64,000 bases of DNA from Candidatus Cloacimonetes bacterium HGW-Cloacimonetes-2. GTDB lineage: Bacteria > Cloacimonadota > Cloacimonadia > Cloacimonadales > Cloacimonadaceae. Below the pieces are notes generated by a model, which saw nothing but the letters and a program-made list of their open reading frames with translations, ran no database searches and was not told the origin of the DNA. The DNA is taken from the NCBI GenBank assembly GCA_002842035.1, contig PHBP01000006.1:1-64000 (forward strand), written 5' to 3'. Positions 7,249 to 9,855 of the stretch are shown piece by piece (position 1 is the stretch's first letter; every line of letters begins with the position of its first letter). Made by a program: the position numbers and the translations under genes.

Positions 7249-7986
7249 TTAGTTACTTACGAAGATCCGATGTGCCAATAGAGCCGTGGCAATCGCGGCA
7301 TTGAGAGATTCCATGCTGCTTTGCATCTCGATGCGGATGCTTATTCCTGCCTTGTCCCGCAGTTCCCTGGTAATCCCATGTGCTTCTGAACCAATCAGAT
7401 AGATTGAGTTGCCCTGTGGCGCATGGAAGTCCTTTAGCCCGATCTCTCCATCCATATCGAGAGCGATCAGGGAAGCGGTCTGTTCCAGGAGCAGCTTATG
7501 ATTCATCGTGCGGAAAGGCACCCAGTAAACGCTGCCCAGGGAAGCCCGGATTACCTTGGGATTGGAGATTTCCACACAGTTTTCGGAGAGCAAAATGGAG
7601 CTGATCCCAAAGGCAGCGGCGATGCGGAAGATTGTGCCCATATTGCCGGGATCGCTGATCCCATCGAGGTACAAAGCCCTCTGTAGTGACGCCTCCCGGG
7701 GACGTGGCAAGGGAAAAAGTGCGGCAATCCCCTGTGCGTGATTGGTCTCGCAAATGCGCTCCATATCGCCTCTTAGCAAACGATAGCAAGGTACAGATTG
7801 CAGATTGGAAGGAGCTTGCTGCTCGCCCTCGAGATAGAGCTCCAACGGCATAATGTTGTTCGATGCCAGTTGATCGAGGATTCGAGCACCTTCTACGATG
7901 ACCTGACCCTTTTCAAGACGCTCCTGTTTACGGCTTAGTTTTGCCAGGCTCTTGATGCGCTCCCGGCTGATAGATTGGATCTTCAT
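7249..7986 (-). CDS. TrmH/SpoU family RNA 2'-O-methyltransferase
   Basis: About 245 residues. The N-terminal part (KQERLEKGQVIVEGARIL) is the substrate-binding domain of 23S rRNA/tRNA 2'-O-ribose methyltransferases. The C-terminal SpoU domain shows motif 1 (LDGISDPGNMGTIFRIAAAFG), motif 2 (IYLIGSEAHGI) and motif 3 (IRIEMQSSMESLNAAIA, equivalent to the SLNVSVA motif), which form the trefoil-knot S-adenosylmethionine site. The exact RNA target (RlmB-like or tRNA) cannot be assigned. Start is uncertain: ATG at 7986 is chosen, but a TTG at 7995 sits closer to the GGGAG. The DnaA-box cluster begins 44 bp upstream. Confidence 0.88.
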   Translation of the reverse strand: MKIQSISRERIKSLAKLSRKQERLEKGQVIVEGARILDQLASNNIMPLELYLEGEQQAPSNLQSVPCYRLLRGDMERICETNHAQGIAALFPLPRPREASLQRALYLDGISDPGNMGTIFRIAAAFGISSILLSENCVEISNPKVIRASLGSVYWVPFRTMNHKLLLEQTASLIALDMDGEIGLKDFHAPQGNSIYLIGSEAHGITRELRDKAGISIRIEMQSSMESLNAAIATALLAHRIFVSN

Positions 7987-8029
7987 ATCTTGCAATAACT
8001 CCCGCTATTTCTACACAAATCCTGCGGAC

Positions 8030-8157
8030 TTATCCACAGGCATTCCGAATTTATCCACAATGCTAAGTGGATTGTTAAATAGTTACTTAGCAACTTATCC
8101 ACAGATAATCCCGAATTTATCCACAAGTTATCCACATACTCGCCGGACTTATCCACA
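8030..8157 (+). other. Cluster of six DnaA boxes (candidate oriC or DnaA locus)
   Basis: Six exact copies of the 9-bp DnaA box TTATCCACA, all in the same direction, start at 8030, 8051, 8095, 8117, 8128 and 8149. Spacings are 21, 44, 22, 11 and 21 bp, that is, close to whole helical turns. Between boxes 2 and 3 is an AT-rich stretch flanked by a 7-bp inverted repeat, GCTAAGT (8062-8068) and ACTTAGC (8085-8091), a possible unwinding region. The last box abuts the stop codon of the protease gene. Genes left of this point run minus; from 11.2 kb most run plus, as expected around an origin. No dnaA, dnaN or gyrase gene is in the window, so a DnaA-titration or regulatory site is the alternative. 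Confidence 0.7.
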
Positions 8158-9855
8158 TCACTGTAAAACCAGCCTGGTGGAGATCTGCTGGGAGCCTCTT
8201 GATAGCTTTACAAAGTAGTGTCCGCTTGCCCAGGCGGAGAGCAGGTCGGGTTCTAATAGAAATGCTCCGGTGCGGGATGCCGGGAAGCTCCGGCTCAATA
8301 CCACTTGTCCCCTCAGGTTGTAGAGCTTGAGCTCCTGAATTTGGGTTGAATCCGAGTCCCAATCCCAGATCAGTTTGATCCCGGTATCGGCCTTGGCAGG
8401 AACAGGATAGGCGAGGATGGAAGCGCGAGTAGGTTCGTAAGTATAGCTTAAATCGCTGGCTTCAGAGAGGTTGCCTGATTGATCGAGACTGAATACCCGG
8501 ACAGTTCCGGAGCCTTTGCAGGGGATGATCGTCTGCAATTGCTCAAAGGGGTCCGATGGGTATATATAGTGAAAAGTGATTGCATTAGATTGAAAAAGAC
8601 GTATCTGATAGGTGATGGGATCGGGATCGGCAACCGGGGAAAAGCTGATTCTAAGCTGTCCGGGGAGCGGCTCAATCTGCAGATTTGCAGGGGCGGCAGG
8701 GGGATCTGTATCCTCGCCAAAGGAGAGGTTTAACAGAGTGAGCCAGCTGGTAGAGGCAAAATCCAGCTTGCGGTAGATGCGCCAGGCAGCATCGAAATTG
8801 TAACGAATATCGGGGAACCAAATCGTTGCAGAGCCCAAGTCCCCGGGATACAGAGGAGCTGATTTGGCGATGACTGCAGTGTCCCACAGGCTCGACAGAA
8901 TGTCAAGTTGCAGATAGTGTAAATTGGGGTATTCCGCTCTGACTTTTTGAATGAACTCGCCAATGTCTATCTCTGCCAGCCCGGTATTCATCGAATAGCA
9001 GTACTGGCGAATCTGCATCAACTCCTCCGCCATACCGCGCCAATTTCCGCAGAACGACCCCCAGAACAGGTTAAACTCCCACAGATGAGTGGTTTGGATT
9101 ACCGAGCAGGTAGTCGGAAAGCCCTGGCTGGAGGGGTTTTGGCTACCGCCTGCCAGATAGGAATTTGTATAAAGCTCCGGGATTTGATCCAGAATCTGAT
9201 AAAGGGGCTGATCAAACAGGGGTAAGATATCTTCGTAAGGGAAGCCTTTGACCGGCACAAGGTCTTGGGATCCAATCACGTAGTCGGCAAAGCCCAGGGT
9301 CTCGGTCAAGACTTCGATGGTCTGCATACTGCAGGCGTCCATTAGCAGGATGTCAAAGCCTGTGTGCCCTGCCAGAGCGGCTTTGAGGTGTCCCGATGAG
9401 ACACTCATTACCTCCTGGGCGGAGTCATCTGTACAGATGTACTTTGTCTTTAGATCTTTGTACCAACTGTCCCCGTGCGACCAAATCACCAGCATCTGCC
9501 GTTCAGCCGGATACTGGTTCTTGCCCCAGGCGATAAAGCTGCGTAAAGTGTTGTAATCGCCGCTGTTGATAGTACCCAGATTTGCCAATTGAGTAGAGAC
9601 GATCTGCTCTGTCTGATCCTGCCCCAAGCGCCAGCGTCTGCCTCCGGATAGGGAGTGTTCAGCCGGCAGATCAGTCTGTAGATAGACTCTCACACCCGGT
9701 GGTAAATCTACAGATTCCATAGAGTTAAAGTCCTGCACTGCGTTTTGGGCGAGGTTGTTGTCCGCCGCCATATAGACCAGGATATTCCAGCTATCTGCCA
9801 GTAGGCAGGCGCAGAACAGGGCGCTCAAAACGAGGAGCAGGACTTTCTTGCTCAT
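8158..9855 (-). CDS. Clostripain-family (C11) cysteine protease with sorting domain
   Basis: 565 residues. After a signal peptide (KVLLLVLSALFCACLLADS) comes a clostripain-like C11 peptidase domain with NILVYMAADNNL near the start, catalytic His127 in VIWSHGDSW and catalytic Cys175 in LLMDACSM. About residues 385-480 look like a fibronectin-III/Ig-type beta domain (PPAAPANLQIEPLPG). The last ~80 residues form a Por/FlgD-type sorting domain (YPVPAKADTG, LYNLRGQVV, ASGHYFVKL). Likely a secreted or cell-surface endopeptidase helping to feed on proteins; C11 enzymes usually cut after Arg/Lys, but specificity here is inferred. The gene stands alone between the DnaA-box cluster and a degenerate repeat at its 5' side. 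Confidence 0.85.
   Translation of the reverse strand: MSKKVLLLVLSALFCACLLADSWNILVYMAADNNLAQNAVQDFNSMESVDLPPGVRVYLQTDLPAEHSLSGGRRWRLGQDQTEQIVSTQLANLGTINSGDYNTLRSFIAWGKNQYPAERQMLVIWSHGDSWYKDLKTKYICTDDSAQEVMSVSSGHLKAALAGHTGFDILLMDACSMQTIEVLTETLGFADYVIGSQDLVPVKGFPYEDILPLFDQPLYQILDQIPELYTNSYLAGGSQNPSSQGFPTTCSVIQTTHLWEFNLFWGSFCGNWRGMAEELMQIRQYCYSMNTGLAEIDIGEFIQKVRAEYPNLHYLQLDILSSLWDTAVIAKSAPLYPGDLGSATIWFPDIRYNFDAAWRIYRKLDFASTSWLTLLNLSFGEDTDPPAAPANLQIEPLPGQLRISFSPVADPDPITYQIRLFQSNAITFHYIYPSDPFEQLQTIIPCKGSGTVRVFSLDQSGNLSEASDLSYTYEPTRASILAYPVPAKADTGIKLIWDWDSDSTQIQELKLYNLRGQVVLSRSFPASRTGAFLLEPDLLSAWASGHYFVKLSRGSQQISTRLVLQ

Follow-up and report, generated by a model that had tools for sequence, protein, structure and literature searches.

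The window analysed here, a stretch of 64,000 nucleotides from Candidatus Cloacimonetes bacterium HGW-Cloacimonetes-2, contains six exact TTATCCACA boxes on the plus strand, with starts at 8030, 8051, 8095, 8117, 8128 and 8149 and successive spacings of 21, 44, 22, 11 and 21 bp. Together they occupy the 162 bp separating two minus-strand genes, one for a SpoU-type methyltransferase and one for a C11 peptidase. Seven exact boxes were counted in the window where 0.53 were expected, and none of 100 shuffles reached seven. Both the coordinates of the array and the judgement that chance is negligible, made in a preliminary description of this DNA, are borne out by these figures. Genome-wide there are 59 exact boxes (14 contigs, 2.507 Mb), and a second dense cluster of nine exact boxes lies on contig C14 (C14:54632-56320). 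The features of the locus are as follows.

7249-7995, minus strand: SpoU-family RNA methyltransferase gene, the constant neighbour in the family (PF00588, 96 bits; synteny)
8030-8038, plus strand: DnaA box 1, or box A, corresponding in relatives to DARS box II; exact match, kept in 36 of 36 family loci
8051-8059, plus strand: DnaA box 2, 21 bp from box A, occupying the place of the relatives' inverted box; exact match, common to G001 only
8062-8091, no strand: inverted repeat with its centre at 8076.5, the window form of the IHF-like palindrome
8095-8103, plus strand: DnaA box 3, 22 bp ahead of box D; exact match, also in G001, G002, G008 and G009
8117-8125, plus strand: DnaA box 4, or box D, first of a double box; exact match, kept in 36 of 36
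8128-8136, plus strand: DnaA box 5, or box E, after a 2-bp gap from D; exact match, kept in 36 of 36
8149-8157, plus strand: DnaA box 6, 21 bp beyond E and abutting the peptidase stop codon; exact match, weak counterpart in G002
8158-9855, minus strand: C11 (clostripain-family) peptidase gene with a T9SS-type tail, absent from some relatives (PF03415; synteny)

Between boxes 2 and 3 we found the 7-bp inverted repeat reported earlier (GCTAAGT at 8062-8068, ACTTAGC at 8085-8091), and an IHF-like site at 8077-8089 scores 7/9 against WATCARNNNNTTR. The boxes had also been described as phased. This holds if the period is set to 10.8-11.0 bp (R up to 0.98, p ~0.0004 after a scan of periods 10.0-11.25) but not at 10.5 bp, where the fit is not significant (p=0.07); the boxes share one helical face only with a period near 10.9 bp. 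The switch in gene direction said to occur within 3 kb was located near 11.0-11.2 kb of the window.

Conservation and layout within the family

Loci in relatives were found by a search with the methyltransferase, after which the upstream DNA was read. The cluster is present in all 36 family members examined, and in 35 its neighbour is the same SpoU methyltransferase gene; in the 36th (G008) it lies at the contig start, and the contig ends short of that gene. A second SpoU-linked cluster in G001 (L091, G001:C71:15500-20500) was left out of the 36 as probable contamination, since this assembly is 6% contaminated and the core of the copy equals that of G064. Box A and the D-E pair, spaced 11 bp, are found in every one of the 36 loci, where A and D stand 86-89 bp apart, a range set in part by the method because the search for box A was confined to 84-90 bp ahead of the D-E pair; an unrestricted listing gives the same spacings. 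On its far side the cluster is bordered by the C11 peptidase gene, or by butyrate kinase where the peptidase is absent. In genus g5 (L086, L087, L088) an extra ORF of ~110-127 aa separates the cluster from the methyltransferase gene. One further genome, G029 (99% complete), has no methyltransferase match and a dnaA-linked double box only, reflecting either an assembly gap or a true loss. In other families, none of 13 loci carried the cluster at this SpoU gene.

In the usual order, a strong box A is followed by an inverted box, then an IHF-like palindrome and finally two tandem boxes at 11-bp spacing; a weak box lies on the other side of A. Offset scans placed the inverted box at +14 in 26 and at +15 in 7 of the 36 loci, for a total of 33, and the weak box at exactly -12 in 23, with 0-5 loci at other offsets. 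All seven loci of genus g3 (L022, L025, L028, L034, L040, L041, L047) have a head-to-head spacing of 15 rather than 14 bp, a lineage-specific change of 1 bp.

The palindrome consists of one IHF-consensus match per strand, back to back, centred 40.5 bp ahead of D, between the core and D-E. Mean scores are 6.19/9 for one match and 5.58/9 for the other, where shuffles reached at most 4.33, and none of 600 permuted consensuses scored as well (palindrome symmetry r=0.78), although the motif was spotted in the same columns later tested and independence of the genomes is assumed in these nulls. When each of 10 genera was represented by a single genome, the site still averaged 6.74/9, a value reached by none of 200 shuffled sets. 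The 7-bp inverted repeat of the window has a centre identical to that of the family palindrome. Of HU-like and IHF-beta-like proteins the genome encodes one each, neither reaching its curated cut-off, and a homodimer would suit a palindrome. The gene for the IHF-like protein is at C1:232476.

The window copy (G000) and that of G001 depart from this layout in that both are without the inverted and -12 boxes and have plus-strand boxes at +21 and D-22. Since G002, of the same genus, retains the inverted box, the simplest reading is loss in the G000/G001 line, which would make the window copy a derived array of same-direction boxes around a candidate bend site and bring it nearer to datA in form. 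The lost box might instead mark the locus as a decaying relic of the family element. However, all six boxes are perfect and five stand at identical spacing in G001 despite a methyltransferase that is 62% identical, and we regard decay as very improbable.

The dnaA region and the replication origin

The preliminary description had favoured a replication origin (oriC) at the cluster, a reading that its six strong boxes and AT-rich stretch would suit. The sole dnaA of this genome lies elsewhere, at C14:54808-56115, with DnaA boxes both upstream and downstream. On the upstream side, two tandem boxes at 11-bp spacing are accompanied by a GC-rich run and by TTAATAATTACTAATTAC, in a region which we take to be an unwinding region with DnaA-trio-like repeats. 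By these sequence features the C14 dnaA region is identified as a standard-looking origin, separate from the window cluster, where no unwinding region was seen and the linkage to dnaA usual for a replication start was not found. The relative G011 is assembled as a single contig (2,246,820 bp), on which dnaA occupies 16-1323 and the family cluster lies at ~447 kb.

A skew minimum at the cluster had been named as a check on the origin reading, and this was examined in G011 by sampling (40 samples of 20 kb). GC skew is weak in this group. Of the two split statistics applied, best arc and half split, only the second has a p value: its optimum begins at 2.02 Mb (permutation p=0.018). The low of this sampled, weak skew lies away from the cluster. 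Given the box-flanked, dnaA-linked origin on C14 and the ~447 kb that separate cluster and dnaA in G011, we reject oriC at the window cluster; an origin there, or a second one, is barely credible. The cluster is better described, from its sequence and family context, as a conserved and apparently non-origin DnaA-box locus.

The head-to-head pair in other families

Of 125 genomes of the phylum, 81 carry a head-to-head pair of boxes (at most two mismatches), most often as a single copy; the reversed control was near 0. In 20 loci of other families, selected by their match to the pair pattern, the pair lies inside the gene of a lamin-tail-like, T9SS-sorted protein and reads NLSTxxVDN. This secreted-protein gene sits between nnr-like and ComM-like genes (gene names assigned by eye). 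A further conserved box is found at +323 in these genes, often with a weak partner at +312. The pair-bearing loci L264-L283 and L304-L333 belong to other families of the order, and in G044 and G056 the pair is ~20-36 kb from dnaA. In the window's own family the secreted-protein gene is present and the pair is absent from it.

To remove the pattern selection, codons were compared in the 30 best loci found by protein search, all of one family (f9) and partly close relatives. The pair was encoded by TTA in 29, TCC in 29, GTG in 30 and AAC in 29 of these 30 genes, in which the usage of the same codons is 0.25, 0.14, 0.18 and 0.26, respectively. A T occupies the wobble base ahead of GTG in 30 of 30, and the Asn codon directly preceding the box is AAC in 14 and AAT in 16. 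Codons frozen to this degree (up to 30/30) indicate that DNA, and not protein alone, is under selection. Since a third box at 12 bp does not recur consistently in other families, the claim there is limited to the pair.

These loci also bear on the possibility that the cluster is a DnaA-regulated promoter of the SpoU methyltransferase gene, directly upstream of which it lies in most of the family. The pair of other families sits in an unrelated gene, a small ORF intervenes in genus g5, and a scan for promoters of the sigma-70 type, the one type covered, found none at the locus. Together these points make a promoter role quite unlikely.

Proposed function and comparison with DARS and datA

Starting from what is observed, namely the boxes, their conservation and spacing, the IHF-like palindrome and a separate, standard-looking origin, we propose that the cluster is a non-origin DnaA control locus, either a switch or a sink, with a probability of roughly 0.6. 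In favour are conservation in 36 of 36 loci, the inverted box in 33, the -12 box in 23, the IHF-like palindrome and the frozen codons of the pair; counting against it are the departure of the window copy from the DARS core, the post hoc nature of both the DARS likeness and the IHF motif, and an IHF-like protein below the curated IHF cut-off. The earlier alternative to an origin, a datA-like sink or DnaA-regulated region, thereby gains support in kind from family-wide conservation and layout. A passive cluster that titrates DnaA and leaves its nucleotide state unaffected would also account for many perfect boxes distant from oriC, and initiation-repressing chromosomal clusters exist in both B. 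subtilis and Streptomyces (PMC5742627). The fixed spacing, inverted box and IHF-like palindrome seen family-wide exceed what titration needs, however, and we consider it unlikely.

As a control locus, the cluster would work through two DnaA assemblies, one formed on the D-E double box and the other, across the palindrome, on box A with its adjoining boxes; an IHF-like protein may bend the palindrome and join the two by looping. Double boxes separated by 2-3 bp are those that E. coli DnaA prefers (PMC11317965). Since most relatives have the DARS layout, their core most likely would help to switch the nucleotide state of DnaA by exchange. In the window lineage, where the head-to-head box appears to have been lost and same-strand boxes gained, the copy would for this reason more likely hold or inactivate DnaA in the fashion of datA, perhaps through hydrolysis. 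Either activity could affect the timing of initiation.

In E. coli, DARS sites recharge DnaA by promoting the release of its ADP, and datA together with IHF stimulates hydrolysis of DnaA-bound ATP. In the E. coli MG1655 DARS1 and DARS2 cores, a plus-strand box is followed by a minus-strand box 14 bp on and another 12 bp further, as likewise described in PMC5742627. Relatives in the family show the same 14/12 spacing (head-to-head at 14 bp, third box 12 bp beyond), and on the other strand their inverted box, box A and -12 box correspond to DARS boxes I, II and III; boxes I-II were found in 33 of 36 loci (26 at 14 bp, 7 at 15 bp) and box III in 23. DARS1 and DARS2 also have an IHF-type site nearby, for which the family offers a candidate, the predicted palindrome at a conserved position, its motif chosen post hoc. 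Three E. coli loci were compared after the family layout had been seen, DARS1 and DARS2 matching the spacing and datA not, so the likeness was matched post hoc, on two spacings, and had not been predicted. Unlike DARS, the relatives have a palindromic IHF-like site and an extra double box beyond it, and the window copy lacks the head-to-head box, scoring 4/9 at the inverted position with no -12 box. In a public-genome scan for TTATCCACANNNNNTGTGGATAA, the matches listed, at least 80, were mostly from gamma- and beta-proteobacteria; a third box at 12 bp (at least 6/9, better of two sides) was present in 59 of 80 matches listed, whereas six control offsets given the same treatment yielded 0-4.

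DARS-like sequences have been described for proteobacteria (PMC10380432; PMC4245941); the literature searched contained no report of DARS-type loci outside Proteobacteria and no paper on DnaA boxes in Cloacimonas. The E. coli-like spacing in relatives is a hint that this little-studied phylum, too, has a control switch that is known from Proteobacteria. We suggest tentatively, at somewhat less than even odds, that Cloacimonadota carry about one DARS-type switch per genome, beside the SpoU gene or inside the secreted-protein coding sequence, rebuilt in the window lineage into a same-direction, datA-like array. If true, DARS-type DnaA switches exist outside Proteobacteria, and the occurrence of their spacing at two alternative places in so distant a phylum would imply that DnaA-switching DNA sites arose earlier, or evolve more readily, than has been supposed. 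Within the family, head-to-head and same-direction versions also occur naturally and would help to tell a recharging site from a sink.

The resemblance to datA, in which same-direction boxes surround an IHF site (PMC5742627), is one of form and concerns the window copy, whose boxes stand in one direction on both sides of the IHF-like site. It differs in scale, with 162 bp from box 2 to box 3 in E. coli datA and 87 bp from A to D in the window, and the relatives differ further in carrying an inverted box. The B. subtilis and Streptomyces clusters, likened here through the description in PMC5742627 rather than by sequence, are likewise DnaA boxes outside the origin.
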